Below are positions 2,302-55,641 of a stretch of DNA of 64,000 nucleotides, one piece after another (within the stretch, counting starts at the first letter, position 1; every line of letters begins with the position of its first letter). Below the pieces are notes generated by a model. The model searched no databases. It was not told where the DNA came from and worked only from the letters and a program-made list of their open reading frames with translations. The DNA is from Fistulifera solaris (taxonomy: Eukaryota > Bacillariophyta > Bacillariophyceae > Naviculales > Stauroneidaceae): NCBI GenBank assembly GCA_030295235.1, contig AP026124.1:744001-808000 (forward strand), written 5' to 3'. The translations under genes were made by a program, and so were the position numbers.

Positions 2302-3946
2302 CTTAGTCGGTCGCTAGAAAATGAACCTGATTTACTACAATATCAAGAATCGCATTAATGCTTTTTCATGAATTTTCATCTCCAATATCGTTATAAGTGG
2401 CTTTTAGAGTTTGAATTTGATCGATATTGTCGGCTAGAGTGAAAGGGGCGACCGCAACAAAAGCGCCCTTATTATGCAATCCACATTATTGGGCGATAGT
2501 TCAGCGCGCAAGCAGAGCAGTGGACATTAAGCTTCTGCTTGTGCCGTCCAAAGACGAGTGTTAGTGTTAGCATCATGACACGTTATTATTGCATGAAAAC
2601 ACAAGGAAATGAGGTACGCAGAGAAAGGTTTCTAAAAGCAGAAGCAACTACCGGTACCCAATCGACAGCCCCCTAATCTTCGACTACATCATTTGTATAT
2701 CTCGATAGAGATGTGGTATACAGTTGAGCCTTGCAATTTATGATGCATTGCTCAAATCAACTACCTTTCTTTCGAACTCCCTCCAAATAACATCATCCAA
2801 CAAATAATAAACTTTGTTACCTAAATGGTTCTCAATAATAATAACGAGCTTACCTGTACCGGTACTCCATAAATTGGGTAATGGATACTGCTGTGACATG
2901 TGAATGACTTTCACGATTCACGTCTCCGTAGTAGGATACGATACCTGGTACAGCACCGTACCGGAAACCGGTAAGACTACAAAATTAACGACCGCGTACC
3001 TGGTACCTGGTACCAGTTACCGCAACTCAAATCCGGAACAACAAGTATGATCATTCTTGTTCAGTCATGGTTCAATGATAGCCGTCATTTGAACGTCCAG
3101 TATGAAGTATCAAGCATCTTATCAAAATTAGGACAAATTTCATTGATGCCGTAATGTCTTGTTCCACGTTGTACAAAAAGGATGAAACATGACATGTCAC
3201 ATGCTTCATGCTTCGGAGCTGTGAGTCTCGGAAATGCTACGTAGTACATGTTCATTCTTTATGATACTAAGTGACTAAACTAATACTGTACTTGCTTGCT
3301 TCCGAATTGCACTCGGTTAGCCCGTGCACTGTACGCTATACTCAATTGTAAGATATGTTTGATATTATTTGTACACGACTAATCTGTGCTACTCTCCGAA
3401 ACTTTGATTAATTGGACCGAATAATAAAAACAGTTTGATGTAAGAGAAGACCTTCTCCTGAGTAATCTTATCTTCCGATTGGTTTCGTGGAGATTCTACG
3501 AAATAATACGAACCAGTCGAGTTTAGGCACCATTCGATGGATCTCCTTTCATTGTACTCATTTTCGGATGACCGGTATTCGCCAACTTTATTGTTGTAGA
3601 TCTTATATCGCTGTAGCACGTCTCGAACAGGCAACCGTGAACACTCCTTTGTTCTCATTGGTCCAAAGTGAGCGTCTGAAGTGTGTCTGATACCAATCGT
3701 ACACGATGTGCGAATGAAATGCCGTTTCGTTCTCGGCATTTCTTCCCCGCCCCTACAAATTTAACCATATACACGTGACCCTTTTCGCCGCAATTCGGCT
3801 CCTTTCACCAGTTAATCCTCAACCGGTCGAAGACGGCATAATAATCGACGCAAGACCCAGCAACACCACAACAGCAACCACCTGCCGCAAAAATATTCAA
3901 TTGAACAGAAAATACGAGTAGTGCTTTCAATTAAATTAACACAACA
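2302..3946. other. 1.6-kb intergenic region without a recognisable gene
   Basis: AT-rich spacer between the HDAC terminator and the next gene. It contains GTACC/GGTACC microrepeats around 2850-2880 and 2940-3020. A 116-codon open frame on the minus strand at 3389-3739 has no recognisable domain and is not called. The pyrimidine- and CAAC-rich stretch at 3850-3946 is the likely 5' leader of the downstream gene. Confidence 0.5.
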
Positions 3947-47141: not shown

Positions 47142-48184
47142 TTATACTTCTGCACCCGTTTTGGCGTCAACACATTTGGCATTAGGCAATCCTCGACAGC
47201 ATACCGTACAACAGCTGCATTGGACTTCCGGATTCGGTCCTAAGCAATCCACAATCAGGCTTTCCAGTTTAAGATTACAAATCGCTTGTGGAACACTACC
47301 CACGAGGTTGTTATCGTGTAAATCAAGGACACGAAGCTTCTTCAGCTTTCCTAGCTCTGCTGGAATTGTACCAGTTAAGAAGTTGGCGTACATGTCTATG
47401 ACCTCGAGATCTTTCAAGCTCGCCAACTCCTTGCCAGGTAGAGTGCCAGCAAAGTAATTTCCGAACAAACGTAGCTCCCTGAGCTTTCGCAAACCCGCAA
47501 TTTCTCTATGCAAATTACCAAAAAAGCCGTTCATATGCAACTCTAGAATCTCCAAATTTCGTAGACCATCCACGATCTTGTAGGGCAACACGCCCTGGAA
47601 ATCGTTCGCATGCATGTCTAGCTCCTTTAATTGGTCAAGCAAGTACAATTCACGCGGTAAAATTCCGTCCAGCTTTAAATAGCCCAACGCTAGCTTTTTA
47701 ATTTTCTTTCCAATCGGAGTACACTTCACACCATACCAGTTGCATTCGTGATGTTTGTGACTCATCCAATGTCCTTTGGCAGCTTCGGCACCAGGTTCGT
47801 CGACGGCCATGAACCAGTCCCATGATGTTGAGTTTGACTTGGTCGAGGCGAAATGCAAAACCGACAATGCGTAGCGCTGAAGAAAAAAGACTTCTTGATC
47901 TTCCCTTGGACTGCCGCCGATCTTGGTATAAGATCCAGCATGCCGCTTGATGCTGGGCACTCGAACTCAAGAGTAGCGACTGTTTACCAGTGGCCTCTAC
48001 TAACCACTTAAGTTCGGTCTTCTGACGGGAGGAGGAGATCGGATTGCGTTTGTCGCACATGTAGAGCAAGTCATCCGTCAATACCACCGGATCCTTCTTG
48101 ACTTTCTGACGCGCCTCCGTCAGCAAAAAGAAAAAAAGTAATTAGGACAGTTAATGCAAACGGCGTTCGAATAGAAAGCTTCAT
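47142..48184 (-). CDS. Secreted leucine-rich repeat protein
   Basis: ATG 48184 starts MKLSIRTPFALTVLITFF, a signal peptide, which joins LLTEARQKVKKDPVVL if the T runs at 48125-48137 are one base shorter. A second shift lies at the C3 run 47903-47905: shortening it joins QAACWILYQDRRQSK to EDQEVFFLQRYALSVLHFAS. After a CNWYGVKC cap there are about five plant-type (24-residue) LRRs: LRNLEILELHMNGFFGNLHR, LRELRLFGNYFAGTLPG, LEVIDMYANFLTGTIPAELG, LRVLDLHDNNLVGSVPQAIC. It ends with a cysteine-rich cap (VQCSCCTVCCRG). No transmembrane helix or kinase follows, so the protein is probably extracellular or secretory. LRR proteins of this kind are numerous in diatoms. Confidence 0.82.
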
Positions 48185-48542: not shown

Positions 48543-48546
48543 CTAA

Positions 48547-51500
48547 CCGATATCCGATCACCCCCCTGATATCCCATATGGGATATCAGTACCGGTCAGA
48601 AACTGTAATTATACCTGGTACTGTTTCTACGCAAATGTACTAATGATGCTATGAAATCATGGATCTTAAGTTATAAACCTTTGCAAAACTAACATATCAT
48701 TGGTTGTTTCCATTGAAAGTCACCGAATAGTGAGTTGACTATATATAGATTACTAATTTTAATTTTTTTTCTTTCCTCTGTTGTTTGTTGTTGTCTGCAT
48801 CTTCTTGTAATGGGCAAGTGTCAACTGTCTCACATCCTCATTTTTATGAGCCTCACTGAAGCAATCGTGATCACTCTTACCATTGAAAACAGAACAAAGG
48901 GGAATTCCACAAGTTTCACATCTGTACCTTGACCTACTGTCCTTTCCTTGAATGGAACAATAGGCACATTTGGATCTCTGGTCATTAGGAATCTTCTCAG
49001 CCCTATGTCCTGCCATTGCCACATTCGGTTCATTTCCAGACATCTCTCCTGCAAGACTGGAGATTAGTTTTCCTTTGAACTCCACAATATTTGTTGGCTT
49101 ATAATCATTGACTCTTTGCTTCTGTGACTCGTTGTACAAGACAAGAGCATTAGAAGTCCCAACATCCAGCAAATAGAAGAAGAGTTTTAACCACCAACGA
49201 CTTAGTCCCATCACCGTCGAAGTTACAGTGCAACCGGCGCATATCCGCCAAGTCAACACCCCCATGTATTTGTTGTAGTGTGCAATTGAGATTGGTCTTG
49301 GGACTGTAACAATCCCACCTTGCACTCTTCGGCGACACTCATCGAAGTCATGATTATTGCTGTCATTCGAAAGGCAGTAAACCATTTTACTGTCTTTCCA
49401 ACACACCAGACCAGCATAGAAGACCCCACCACTTCCATCATTCATCTTTAAGCGAAACTTAATAGCATCTCCTCTTTTCATGGACTTAAACACCGGTGAA
49501 TTCTTGGCTAGTCGCACATCTTTTGGTAGTCTGTTTGCAACAACGGTCCCCGTCACATAGATATCATTTTTTTTCAGCGCCTTCATCAGATCAACTGATG
49601 TATAGAACCGATCCACATAAACAGTTCTGTGAGTACCAAAGAATGGGCTCACCAGCTTCTCAACTACCTGAACAGTTTTCTTTTGTTGACTTCATCTGAT
49701 TCATGTTCGCCCGTAGGTCGCTTTTCCGGTGTAAACAAGAACACGAAGGACATATGCTGTTTCAGCATCAGTCAACACATATACTTTGATCCCGTACCGT
49801 GCTGACTTAGAAATGATGCGCACTTTGAACTTCATCCTTCCAAATGCACGAATGAGAGTCTCATCAAGTGACAATTGTTGGCCAGGTGAAAATAATCTGG
49901 AAAAGCGGTCTTCCAGGTAGTCCCGTACTTCTGCTATCTTATAGGCTGGATCATAATTGTCTCCTGTTGGTTGATTGGTTACAGAGCAACAGTGAAGAAA
50001 TCGAAGCATCTTGTGGAATTTTCGCCCACTCATAATGTTTTTTGCAGCCTGACATTCAAGGTATGGATCGTCTGAGAACCAGTTTGATGGCTTGTCTTTT
50101 CGCTTTTGGATACTCATAAGGAATAACACCGCAATGAATTGCTCCAGATCATGCCGTGTAACATCCTTCCAATCTTTTGATCGTAGCTTTCCGTATTCGT
50201 TCGTATGAAACACTATTCTATCAAGTAGTGTTTTCTTGAAAATTTCCCTCCAGGCACGAATCGGTGTGTTGACATCAATGGGACTGCACAACAGACCCGT
50301 TATAACTCGTTCGCTCCTGCCAACTGTTGTGTGGTGGATCCGGAAACTTTCCATTGGATTCGGCTCCATAGCCTGGAAGATGACATCCTTTTCCCAAGAA
50401 TCCCCAAGAGGCTGCGTTTGATTATTGACTTCATCAATCAATTCATCAGTGAATTCTTCCCGACTTTGCTTTCTTCATCAGAAGAAACTTCCTCCTCCCT
50501 CCAGTCGTCAGGCAGATCCAGTGTCAATGTGGTGGGAGCTTCCAATGCATTCGGATGTAACAAGAACAAGCAACTCAGACGAATTGACCAAAAGTGCTGA
50601 AAGCGAAATACACGGACTGTTGACTGCACATCTGACCAAGCACGATGCGCTTGGTCAGGGTTTTCACCAGTGACATATTGAAAAAGAGAACCAAGGTTGT
50701 AAGCTGGCGGTGCTGCCAAATTTCTTTGAGAGACAGCTTTTTTTGCCATTTCTATCGTGGTCGATAGCAAACCCAAACCTATGATCTTCAAGGATATGAT
50801 GTTCAAGATTGTATCTTTTCAATTCAGAAAGCAAGAAAGGAACATCAAACCGTTTCCCATTGTGCTTAACGAGGACGATGTGATCAACACGAATGTCGGA
50901 TTCTGATGCACATTTTTGCATTAAATGGATGAAATCTCTTGCAACAACTGGGAACAATGGAGAATTCTTAACCATATCATTGGTTATTCCAGTCAATGCA
51001 ATGATTTCATCCGAAATCATCTTGCTTGGATGGATAAGTTCGCTGAATTGGCCATCTTCGACTTGAATACCGGATGGATTCAAAATCTGTGCCGACAATT
51101 CAATGATTTCGTGAAACTTTTTGAAAATCCAGTGGTCTCCAAATCAAATACAACATAAAGAATATGTTGCCAGTTAAGTATAGGAGGGAATCGAGGAACA
51201 AAAGCAGGCATGGGGAGGTGTTGGTGGTGCCACAATAACATCATTTTGATGTACGGTCGTGTCAGGCACTGAATTTTGGGCTGGTAAACGGTTTCGCGCA
51301 GGACAATTCCGTTTGTCATGACCTTCGGCTTTTGCAAAGGCCACACTTTCGTTTTTTTTGGTTGTTGTTGTTGATCATTATCAACCAGATTTGCAGGAGA
51401 CGCCATGGTGATCGAGATATTGGAATGAGAAAAAGGGCCTTGTGTGGGTGACAGACAGAGCAAAAAGTGCCGACGAGGTGCTCGATATAGCAGATAATAG

Positions 51501-51676
51501 GATTTGCAATGTCTGCCTAATTTAAAAACAAATTTCAGAACCAATTTACTTAAATAACAAGGATTACAATATCAAAATGGGGATTTCGAAAGTTAAACAG
51601 AGATTAAGTTAGGTAACGAAATCTTCGCTAAAATGGGGTATGATATCCCAAATGGGATATCATGACCGGATATGGG
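48547..51676 (-). mobile_element. piggyBac-type DNA transposon, 3.13 kb, with CTAA target-site duplication
   Basis: Left end CCGATATCCGATCA (48547) and right end TGACCGGATATGGG (to 51676) form terminal inverted repeats (CC-ATATCCG-TCA). Each is followed inwards by a 22-bp palindrome TGATATCCCA..TGGGATATCA at 48567-48588 and 51641-51662. CTAA lies directly outside both ends (48543-48546 and 51677-51680) and reads as a target-site duplication. piggyBac elements normally duplicate TTAA and begin with CC; a CTAA target is a known minor alternative in the family, or both copies reflect a changed TTAA. The single coding unit runs on the minus strand. The well-matched ends suggest a fairly young insertion. 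Confidence 0.85.
48759..51406 (-). CDS. DEDDh exonuclease - piggyBac transposase fusion (coding unit of the transposon)
   Basis: ATG 51406 (MASPANLVDNDQQQQPKKTK). First a DnaQ/RNase T-like 3'-5' exonuclease: Exo I VVFDLETTGFSKS, then HEIIELSAQILNPSGIQVED, Exo II HNGKRFDVPFLLSELKRYN, and Exo III AHRAWSDVQSTVRVF (H-x4-D). After an acidic linker comes the piggyBac DDE core: SFRIHHTTVGRSERVITGLL region, QQLSLDETLIRAFGRMKFKV (Asp), YGIKVYVLTDAETAYVLRVL (Asp), VEKLVSPFFGTHRTVYVDRF (Asp) and FYAGLVCWKDSKMVYCLSND, ending in a zinc-ribbon or PHD-like CAYCSIQGKDSRSRYRCETC plus IPLC and HDC. About five one-base anomalies, mostly at homopolymers (near 51107, 50750, 50455, 49705, 49680), interrupt the frame, yet no ordinary stop separates exonuclease and transposase. 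They look like those in host genes, so the element may be intact in the cell. Confidence 0.8.
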
Positions 51677-51765
51677 CTAAAATCTTTTCTCGATGTGACG
51701 ATTTGTTGTCGCACACAATCGCATCTTCTTGTTGTTTGGAATACTAGGAGAACACTGAGGTTAAA
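51677..51765. promoter_or_regulatory. Short upstream region of the coiled-coil gene
   Basis: Only 89 bp separate the right transposon end and its CTAA from the ATG at 51766, so the insertion sits in the promoter or 5' leader of the following gene. Confidence 0.45.
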
Positions 51766-54700
51766 ATGATGAAAACACCCACAAAGTCCAGACTCTCTTC
51801 GAGTCCATTGTCTACTTTCTCGCCGAACAAGCTCTTCGGCTTGAAGCAGTCACCCGATCCTCCTGGTAAAGGTAGTGATACTCGCAAATCAGCAGCAAGT
51901 GATTCGAAAGTGAAATTTTCTCCACTTAAGAAAGTGATTACTTCACTTGATTCAAGAGATTGTTTGGGAGACTCGGTTAGGCTTCTACAAAGTAATCTCG
52001 AAGAAGCACGACTTGATAACATTTCGGACCATCTGGACCAAGCAGCCAGAGATGATTTTGCGAATGATGGACAAGACGAAAACAAAGACACTGCTTGGCT
52101 TCTGAATATGTTCAAGAGCTTAGAGAAGAAGCATTCAGATGACAAGTCTGATTGGGATAAGCAGCTGCAACAAGAGAGAAAGAGCAAGTCGTCCTACAAA
52201 AACAAACTCACTAACGCGTACAAGGAAAAACTGACATGGCTCGAAAACCAGCTACAGAAAGTAGGCGAGACTCACTGCGCGGTCAGCAGAGATGTTGTTT
52301 ACAGTGAAGGCAAAACTTTGCATGAAGCTTCAAGTGGAGAATCTTCTGGGACGGCGAGCACCTCGAGTAACAGTCAACGCTGCGGAGGCGGAACACAAAA
52401 CAGTTCCCCTGCCGTTGGCGAGAAAAGCTCGATGTCGACAATATTATCACCCGATTCAGTCCGCAGGGTTCAACTTTTAGAGCAGACGTTGAATGACACA
52501 CTGCGGCAGTATGAGTCTGATCGTGCCGTATGGGTCAAAGCGCTGGAGGAAGCAGCAGCCGTCACCCAGGCCGGTGAGCAACTTTCATCCTACCAGGAAC
52601 AGCTTTTGTCTGACTTGAAAAAGCAGTTAGCGGAAGAACAGAAACAACATAAGAAGAAGTGGAAAGAACAGAATAATGTATTGAAGAACTTGCTCACTTT
52701 GACTGAAACTCAGTTTCAGCATGAGAGGCAAGAGTGGGAGCGACGGGCTAGTGAATATGAACGCACCATCGAAAAACAAAATCAACTCGCTTGTGAAGCC
52801 CAGGAAAGGTTAAAACTCGATCTAAGCGAGATCACAAAGGAAAATATATCCCTCCAGGATGAAAAATCGAGCATGGAAGAGACTTTGGCGAAGATGCAGG
52901 AAGAAAAAAGCAGTGATGAGCCGACAGGTCAAGCAGCTTCAGAAAAATCTAATGGAGACACCGGGTAGTCGCGGCAATGCAGTAAGCGGAAGTCGTTTTC
53001 AAGCGCTCTCTCCTTCTCGACGAACAGATTGGGATGATAGACTCGACCGCGCGATGGTCGAAAGGGACTTGTACAAACAGGAAGCTAGTCAAGCTGCGAA
53101 GAATCTCGAAGTCGAGAGGAAGAAATGGGAAGAGCACTCTGAAGAAGCATTGAAGGCTGAACGTAGAGATGCTGCCGATCGACTAGAAGCGGAGCGAAAA
53201 ATATGGGAGGAAAAGATTGAGGCTAAAGAGAAAGAATGTGTAGAAATTCGAAACGGATGGGAAGCCGAGAGACAGCAATGGGCTGAAAAACAGGAAAACC
53301 TGGTAAAGGAGTGGGAAGAGGAAACACGAAACCAAATCGAGGAGCTTCAAAAAATCCATGCAGCCGAGTTGAGTGAAATGCAGTCTTCGGACGACGAACT
53401 CGCAGAAAATTACAGAGAGGCTCTTGAAAAGAAGAATGAACTTGTTTTGCGCTTAAGAAGAATGGAGCAGCAACGCAGTGAAGAGAAGGGCACGTGGAAG
53501 CTACAACTTGAAGGGGCTCTTTCAGAGTCGCGGAGGGGTGCCTTGACTGTGCAGCAATTAAAAAAAGAGATTGCCGAAGAGCGAAGACGTCGGTCAGAAG
53601 AAACCGAGTTATTGCGCGATGAGCTGTCCCACACGCGACTTCTTCTCTCCAGTAAGACCATCCATGATGCTCAGCCTAGTGGTATAACAGAGCATGTTAT
53701 GAAGCTTCATGAAGAGCTCGAAAAAGCCAGAGAAGGCACCGAATGTCAACTGGCAATGTTGCGCGAAAGTCACGCTCGAGATATTCATCGACTAACAAGC
53801 GAACTTGAAATACTTGAATCGCAAAACGGAGCGCTTGTTGTCGAGCTGAAACGACAGCAAAAGATCAGGAATGAAGTAAACGAGGACGAGCTTACTCTGA
53901 AAAAGTCACAAGAAAATCAATCGTTGGAGCATTGCTTAGCTATACAGGAAAAAGAAGAGGAAGTCAACAAATTAAAATCGAAACTTGAAGATGCAGAACA
54001 ATTTCGAGAAAAAATAGAGCAGGATTCGATCTATCTGGCGGAAAAACTAGATGCGGCACGCAAAGATGCAAAACAATTCGAAGATAAGTTGAAAGACGCC
54101 AACGAAGAACACTTCAAAAATACCCAGGAATATGCTGTCCAATTGCAAGCTGTACAAGAAGATTTGTGTAAAGCAAATGAAGACAAACAAGAAATTGAGC
54201 AACAGGTGGCTGCTGTAACGATAGAGAACAGGAAGCTTGTGGAACAGAACCTGGAATTGACTGGGATAATCGACAACCTAAAGCAGAAAATGGAAACGCT
54301 GGTGAGCGTATTGTCGTCCGACATAGAAACGGTCGAAGGGCGACCTTTTGAGCCTAACTCGATGTCTCCCACTGAAGCCCTTTCAACCCTCGAAAAATTT
54401 ATTTATTCACTGGCGTCCCGCCATAGCATGATTAAAGAAAGTCTTGAGCTTAGAGTTGAAATACTTTCTGCCGAGAACGACAAGCTTAGATTAGGCGAGA
54501 AAACCAGTACTTCAAGGCTCGAAAACGCCTTAGAGGAACTTCGACAGGACATCATCTCAATCAGATATATGATGGAGGCAACGCGAAAAACTGACCAGAT
54601 TTTGGAAGAATCAAGTTTTGACATTTTACGAGCGAATCTGGAGCAAATCCAAAACAACCTTGATGACGTCGCAGGTGAAGCGGCACTTCAGACCGAATCG

Positions 54701-55641
54701 TTCTACGAGTTCCGGAAATTAGCAGAGAATCATTTTACGGGAGCCGAAAGTAATAAAGACGATAAAACTTCTGTCGAGTTTCAGCATAATATATTGTCAG
54801 AAATGGCCATTCTCCGAGACGGCCTAGCAAAGATCATCAAGAATCAGAGCGAAGAACTACAACAACCAAAGAGAGAATTAGAAAAAGTTAGAGAAGAATT
54901 AAAAGAGGAAAGAACGAGACGCCAAAAAGCGAGGCTGACATAGCAACTCTGAACGAGCAAGCAAGTGCATACACTGACGAATTGATGCATTTACAGGCCG
55001 AAAATGCGAAACTGGAAGTACTTCTCCAGGAAGCGGAAGCGAAAGCAAACTACGCATTAACATGCCAACCGCAACATACAAACGAGGAAGATTCTCTGGC
55101 TTCTGAACACGTAAGCTTTGGGCGCGCGGCGTCGTACTCAGGAGATTCAACTCTCCTCGACGAAGCTTTGGCGTTAGCGCAAGGTCTCAGTGATTTCGTC
55201 CAAGGAAACAATAATAATGAACATGAAGTCAATGTCTTGGAAATTATGGAGAACCTGGCAGGAATGATTGATAAACAAGACAAATCTGACAACGCATCAA
55301 TGCCACGCCTTGAGATAAGCTACCCGAGAGAAAATGTATCAGCCTTTATCCAAAAGACTAACAATGTGTCTCGCCAGTCAATGTCTACCGAAGATCCGAA
55401 ACTGTCTGTATTCGTTGAACAACTTTACGGCCGATGCCAGTTACTTGAACGTGAAAGGTTAGAGATGATGGAATTGACTCTGGATCTCTTGGAATCTACG
55501 CGACGATCAGGGAAGGCGGAGGTAGAAGCTGCGTTATCAATCGCGAGGCGACGAATTGCAGACGATTTCAAAAGGATGCGAGACGAAAACTCTGCCACAC
55601 GAGAAGATCTGTATCACAAAATTTGTTCGGGTCACGACTGA
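51766..55641 (+). CDS. Long coiled-coil protein (about 1,290 residues)
   Basis: ATG 51766 (MMKTPTKSRLSSSPLSTFSP). An N-terminal Ser/Pro/Thr-rich, basic region with SP/TP sites (SPLSTFSPNKLF, VKFSPLKK) may be phosphorylated. From residue about 100 the protein is almost wholly heptad-patterned and Glu/Lys/Gln-rich, with repeated W-x2/5-E units (WEEHSEEALKAERRDAADRL, WEEKIEAKEKECVEIRNGWE, WAEKQENLVKEWEEETRNQI). Two run anomalies shift the frame: A6 at 52904-52909 (one too many: MQEEKAVMSRQVKQLQKN) and A5 at 54924-54928 (one too few: RQKSEADIATLNEQAS). The family is unknown; centrosomal, kinetochore, golgin or myosin-tail-like scaffolds are all possible. Similarity to such proteins would be compositional only. 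Confidence 0.75.

Follow-up and report, generated by a model that had tools for sequence, protein, structure and literature searches.

The 64,000-nucleotide stretch of Fistulifera solaris DNA analyzed here (hereafter the window) contains a complete transposon of the piggyBac superfamily, 3130 bp in length and with its coding strand on the minus strand. Its features are as follows, with positions counted from the first letter of the window.

48543..48546: left target-site duplication, CTAA (TTAG on the coding strand), the same as at 51677-51680
48547..51676, minus strand: whole transposon, its ends identical in all five copies found and its flanks different
48547..48560: terminal inverted repeat at the transposase-tail end, CCGATATCCGATCA, 14 bp
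48567..48588: perfect palindrome of 22 bp, TGATATCCCATATGGGATATCA, bp 21-42 from the tip
48759..50474, minus strand: coding region of the piggyBac transposase, with frame breaks in the window copy near 49.7 kb and 49.2 kb
48843..48971, minus strand: cysteine-rich C-terminus of the transposase, with a Cys/His pattern
49860-49880, 49596-49625 and 49240-49263, minus strand: catalytic Asp motifs of the transposase, window copy
50438..50509, minus strand: junction, where the acidic linker of the exonuclease frame overlaps the opening of the transposase frame; broken in all four full copies
50606..51154, minus strand: DEDDh exonuclease domain (PF00929 in the open C35 copy, coordinates transferred by hand)
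51128-51148 (ExoI), 50835-50864 (ExoII) and 50630-50650 (ExoIII), minus strand: exonuclease motifs
51303..51348, minus strand: CCHC zinc-knuckle pattern (CX2CX4HX4C), exact in four of the five copies (C35, C29, C8 and C4) and split by one extra base in the window copy
51376..51406, minus strand: two candidate start codons, at 51404-51406 (MASPAN...) and 51376-51378 (MINNNN..., which in C35 shares its frame with the knuckle and the exonuclease)
51641..51662: near-perfect palindrome of 22 bp, TGATATCCCAAATGGGATATCA, bp 15-36 from the tip
51663..51676: terminal inverted repeat at the exonuclease end, CCCATATCCGGTCA read inward, 14 bp
51677..51680: right target-site duplication, CTAA

The limits of the element given in the earlier note, 48547-51676, are exact, as the tips and the flanking CTAA both match, and its statement that the terminal repeats lie outside the two modules is likewise borne out. 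The tips, both read inward, match at 12 of 14 positions, and the transposon termini are 5'-CC. On the homeologous contig C1, the target site is present once, as CCAA. Across the 64-kb window, 20-mers with at least 18 of 20 positions self-complementary begin at five start positions, two of which are the end palindromes of the element; among those five, the left-end one alone contains a perfect 20-bp palindrome. Near-palindromic stretches are also seen at window positions 3000-3060, one of them around CTGGTACCTGGTACCAG. In piggyBac, the C-terminal zinc domain of the transposase is described as binding a 19-bp palindromic internal repeat located at about bp 17-33, and the two ends are described as unequal (PMC7351741). 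The inner palindromes of the present element resemble that repeat in placement, and the unequal ends of piggyBac offer a further likeness; judged by this resemblance, the left-end palindrome is a likely candidate for the binding site of the C-terminal zinc domain of the transposase.

When the entire assembly (51.7 Mb in 61 contigs) was searched at the DNA level, with counts that are lower bounds, at least four full-length copies of about 99.5% identity were found: the window copy on contig C2 and those on C35, C29 and C8. A fifth copy, on C4 (L031) and accounting for two rows of the search, is internally deleted to 1352 bp and retains the start of the exonuclease, and the remaining row of the search, on C1, is flank alone without the element. 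Exact 4-bp target duplications flank all five copies found: TTAG on C2, TTAA on C35, C29 and C4, and CTAC on C8 (L030). Two of the five insertions are thus off TTAA, with a central TA in all five, and the element may be less strict about its target than known piggyBac elements are. The C4 copy has a TTAA duplication of its own despite its internal deletion, meaning that it either moved in trans or was deleted after moving; inspection of the deletion joint, which has an overlap of about 1 bp, indicated no repair route.

F. solaris has been described as an allodiploid diatom (PMC13276009), and the assembly contains paired homeologous contigs (C1/C2, C7/C8 and C34/C35, plus the pairs carrying host exonucleases). 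Empty homeologous sites were present for all three insertions checked (C2 on C1, C35 on C34 and C8 on C7), with 78-90% flank identity between filled and empty sites. The 4-bp site is single in each, and its letters differ from those of the duplication (CCAA/CTAA, TAAC/TTAA and ATAC/CTAC, respectively), so that the empty sites give the boundaries of the insertions and not the exact pre-insertion target. Since the target duplications and the empty homeologous sites bracket the whole unit, the exonuclease and transposase move together, and the whole unit, exonuclease included, has transposed. The near identity of the copies indicates that this movement was recent. A chance or misjoined insertion was considered and rejected, as four full copies at about 99.5% identity share the architecture in different flanks and three have empty homeologous counterparts. 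The exonuclease is present in all four full-length copies found, no copy without it was found in the genome (the shorter C4 copy has lost internal sequence but still contains the start of the exonuclease), and no unrelated insertion boundary was found at 50.4-50.7 kb; together with the bracketing of the unit, these results uphold the view of the earlier note that the exonuclease belongs to the element.

The exonuclease module recognized by the earlier note is a full-length match to PF00929 in the C35 copy (profile 1-164 of 164, E 2.7e-22), where one open frame of 355 aa contains both the CCHC knuckle pattern CGLCKSEGHDKRNC and the complete DEDDh domain. The knuckle pattern, which the earlier note does not mention, has a weak Pfam score (AIR2-like ZnK, E 0.015, sub-cut-off). 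The catalytic letters are D and E in ExoI, D in ExoII, and H and D in ExoIII. The motifs FDLETTG, GKRFDVPF and AHRAWSD are retained by every one of the four full copies, where each can be read in one frame or another, and share a single frame in C35 only; in the window copy, FDLETTG and AHRAWSD are in one frame and GKRFDVPF in another. All eight motifs sought in the four full copies were readable in some frame, except the knuckle split in C2. At the place where C8 has LVAHNGKRFD, the other three full copies have LVKHNGKRFD; AHN is also found in a PolC chain. When the domain was compared with solved chains, the best match was a PolC-type DNA polymerase (E 7.2e-9), over a region that is presumably the proofreading part of the polymerase, followed by ERI1 (E 5.1e-6) and, lower, TREX (E 2.6e-4); an Exuperantia domain match was sub-cut-off (E 1.3e-4).

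These matches bear on the substrate of the enzyme. ERI-1-type exonucleases degrade small RNAs, and the CCHC knuckle is a module that binds single-stranded nucleic acid; the position of ERI1 as second-best solved relative and of the knuckle pattern directly upstream of the exonuclease would be consistent with an enzyme that acts on RNA, degrading small RNAs with the help of the zinc knuckle and so weakening host silencing of the transposon. This is the main functional rival to the trimming of transposon or donor ends, the role that we prefer, and we consider it unlikely, as the best solved match is a DNA polymerase, the TREX DNA exonucleases match too, and the position of the domain beside a transposase suggests action at DNA ends.

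Recent capture of the domain from the host was a further candidate. When frames of at least 100 aa from the eight other PF00929 loci of the genome were compared with the C35 exonuclease, phmmer reported nothing up to E 10 and the best blastp match was weak (E 0.049); recent capture from these loci is therefore not supported. In searches of collections expected to hold few eukaryotes, no relatives of the exonuclease were found in viral contigs, and no relatives of the transposase outside this genome were found in viral contigs (by the sequence itself and by a three-row alignment), phage records (by the sequence) or genome contigs (by the alignment).

The piggyBac DDE transposase reported by the earlier note is evident in the window as a match to PF13843 (DDE_Tnp_1_7) at 49146-50267, covering profile positions 1-348 of 349 (E 1.4e-62) with two stops inside. 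In the C8 copy, the match covers profile positions 29-348 (E 3.4e-62), and the transposase frame is open for 484 aa and broken just upstream. The C8 transposase matches piggyBat (2.3e-34) and piggyBac (8.8e-19), and residues D117, D201, D321 and D324 of its open frame, corresponding to the catalytic triad and a fourth Asp, are invariant with the piggyBat and piggyBac segments. The third Asp motif of the window copy, GGVDLAD, is in a different frame from the remaining transposase motifs. The cysteine-rich C-terminal end, also described by the earlier note, is present as a pattern at 48843-48971, for which no profile score is significant (piggyBat second alignment, i-E 12; zf-HIT, E 0.016, sub-cut-off).

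Other piggyBac-like sequences are present in the assembly. An unbroken 992-aa frame on C11 (L033:3059-6034) matches PF13843 in part, over profile positions 3-189 (E 6.4e-11), has a C-terminus rich in cysteine, and is possibly a domesticated piggyBac gene. Loci on C26 (L034) and C9 (L035) belong to a distinct piggyBac-like family with interrupted frames; the 538-aa frame of L034, taken alone, has no Pfam match at E 0.01.

One point of the earlier note is not confirmed, namely that the exonuclease and transposase apparently form one reading unit: the motifs are in different frames in the window, and all four full copies break at the junction. No open frame runs from exonuclease to transposase in any of the four full copies compared, and both halves of each are broken, save that the exonuclease domain of C35 is whole. 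The junction break is the sole break common to all four in the exonuclease-transposase stretch; a second shared break near the coding start is possible, if one of the ATG choices holds. Because each full copy has frame breaks, none is shown to be autonomous, and the copies, about 99.5% identical, are too alike for a measurement of selection.

The pattern of differences among the copies helps to interpret these breaks. Among the four full copies, 13 indel events were counted against 14 columns with substitutions (position 1178 falls in both counts), while the homeologous flanks of the window copy differ by 563 mismatches and 19 gaps (12 of them single-base) in 5768 columns, so that indels are far in excess among the copies (13:14 vs 19:563). 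Four other homeologous pairs, 85-89% identical along roughly 3.2-3.4 kb, show between 21 and 36 gaps; coding and non-coding sequence is mixed in these stretches. As most breaks differ between copies and indels exceed those between homeologs, most of the frame breaks look like assembly indels and not decay. A neighboring LRR gene (window 47145-48141, minus strand) is broken in the window and open for 408 aa on the homeologous C1, its break being likely an assembly indel. A coiled-coil-like gene (window 51748-55638, plus strand) adjoins the insertion; it includes a 705-aa piece without a Pfam match, and its break near 52.83-52.97 kb is common to both homeologs. Contrary to the idea of assembly indels everywhere, all eight host exonuclease matches lie in stop-free frames of 230-659 aa.

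This last observation, with the unbroken 992-aa frame on C11, indicates that breaks do not occur everywhere in the assembly, and it can be read together with the breaks in all four copies to mean that the exonuclease is a harmless passenger of one lineage without any role, borne by copies that may all be dead and owe their movement to a source element outside the assembly. The contigs of the other piggyBac-like family (C26 and C9) lack any PF00929 match, which points the same way. We find this account quite unlikely: the catalytic motifs are kept, in some frame, in all four full copies, most of the breaks are copy-specific with an indel ratio that points to the assembly, and a useless passenger would not explain the recurrence of DEDDh and DEDDy exonucleases in Kolobok and Dada transposons.

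The shared break at the junction requires separate consideration, and two proteins, an intron or a genuine ancestral break are all possible there. In a codon score calculated on the C8 copy, the coding signal leaves the exonuclease frame and continues directly in the transposase frame, ahead of the first ATG of the latter, and the highest value of the whole table falls in the transposase frame upstream of that ATG. The score is a crude one, computed in 25-codon windows without a significance measure and trained on 21 open frames, one of which is the piggyBac-like frame of L033; as it stands, it favors a single coding unit in which the copies have a base-level break in common. A programmed -1 frameshift was rejected as a candidate, since no standard -1 slippery heptamer was seen when the junction sequence between the two frames was examined by eye. 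An intron is formally possible: going by sequence, the stretch tested offers 24 GT-AG pairs that would connect the two frames, although none was judged convincing.

On the same data, the shared break could be genuine and the element could make two separate proteins, the transposase being expressed from its own start through internal initiation, a second promoter or splicing. The commonness of this one break to all four copies, the in-frame ATG at 50369 and the 24 GT-AG pairs that could link the frames by sequence alone all argue for this arrangement, which we regard as possible, if on balance doubtful. The codon score of the transposase frame already peaks upstream of that ATG, there is no convincing donor among the 24 pairs, and an intron would excise coding-like sequence; moreover, the break common to both homeologs of the coiled-coil-like gene indicates that shared breaks may arise meaninglessly in the assembly. 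The choice between one protein and two is a question of architecture, and two proteins would be compatible both with end trimming and with action on small RNAs.

Our preferred explanation, to which we give about an even chance on the basis of the domains, the conserved motifs, the target duplications and empty sites, the codon score and the precedent of KolobokD, is an end-trimming piggyBac transposon with an added zinc knuckle and DEDDh exonuclease. A piggyBac transposon would have acquired a zinc knuckle and a DEDDh 3'-5' exonuclease upstream of its transposase, the two enzymes probably being made as one protein, or as two proteins from one transcript. The C-terminal zinc domain, bound to the palindromes, would hold the transposase at the ends, where it would cut via the piggyBac hairpin route. 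The exonuclease, brought into the same complex, would trim 3' ends: either those left recessed where the donor site is broken or, on the transposon itself and prior to joining, stray 3' flanking bases at its ends. Trimming of the donor site would spoil seamless rejoining and favor repair from a template, which could restore the element at its old site. The active-site motifs of both enzymes are present in all four full copies, not all of them in one frame. To our knowledge, the known chemistry of piggyBac needs no exonuclease. In the scheme presented in PMC7351741, the cut frees a 3'-OH that closes a hairpin by attacking across; once opened, the hairpin leaves a 4-nt TTAA overhang, the complementary donor strands allow seamless repair, and no exonuclease is involved in the scheme as given there. 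An extension of the end-trimming model that we hold to be improbable is that two TTAA superfamilies, piggyBac here and KolobokD, each gained a DEDDh exonuclease for a common purpose, to resect donor ends so that seamless rejoining is prevented and the gap is refilled from the sister or homologous chromosome. If true, a cut-and-paste element that makes no gain becomes one that retains its old copy, and the same enzyme might relax the preference for TTAA, as seen in the insertions at TTAG and CTAC.

The combination of exonuclease and piggyBac transposase may alter how the element exits from and re-enters the genome. Because its excision is scarless, piggyBac is used widely in genome engineering, and a natural exonuclease-bearing piggyBac transposon would provide a ready-made system for examining what preserves or abolishes scarless excision and by what means cut-and-paste elements become more numerous.

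Comparison with known systems shows both shared and distinct components. Like piggyBac and piggyBat, the element possesses a DDE transposase with four active-site Asp residues, a 4-bp TTAA-type duplication and CC... tips, and its Cys/His-rich pattern lies at the place of their cysteine-rich C-terminal domain; unlike them, it carries a DEDDh exonuclease together with a CCHC knuckle pattern, and two of its five insertions are not at TTAA. A few piggyBac families are reported to encode a KolX-like protein (PMC9587614), so accessory-bearing piggyBac elements are already known, but their accessory protein is KolX-like and not an exonuclease. The same paper describes KolobokD as a TTAA transposon carrying a DEDDh exonuclease likened to Exuperantia, TREX and ERI1, for which its authors proposed end trimming (PMC9587614). 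By that description, rather than by exonuclease sequence, KolobokD and the present element are both DNA transposons with TTAA duplications and a DEDDh exonuclease of Exuperantia/TREX/ERI1 similarity, whereas KolobokD has a Kolobok transposase and 5'-RR tips where this element has a piggyBac transposase and 5'-CC. Dada elements of Laccaria and Ectocarpus are also DDE transposons with a DnaQ-like 3'-5' exonuclease, described as a DEDDy enzyme inside the transposase domain and proposed by the authors to act in 3'-end processing (PMC3706591); here, in contrast, ExoIII is of the h-type (AHRAWSD), the domain lies upstream of a piggyBac transposase, and the superfamily and target differ. The idea in the earlier note that the architecture might be undescribed thus fails for transposon-borne exonucleases as such, which are published in KolobokD and Dada, and stands for the piggyBac pairing, no piggyBac element with an exonuclease being among the matches listed in the open-licence literature. 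The recurrence of exonucleases in several groups of DDE transposons, two of them TTAA-specific, suggests a need for end processing that is absent from current models of these elements.
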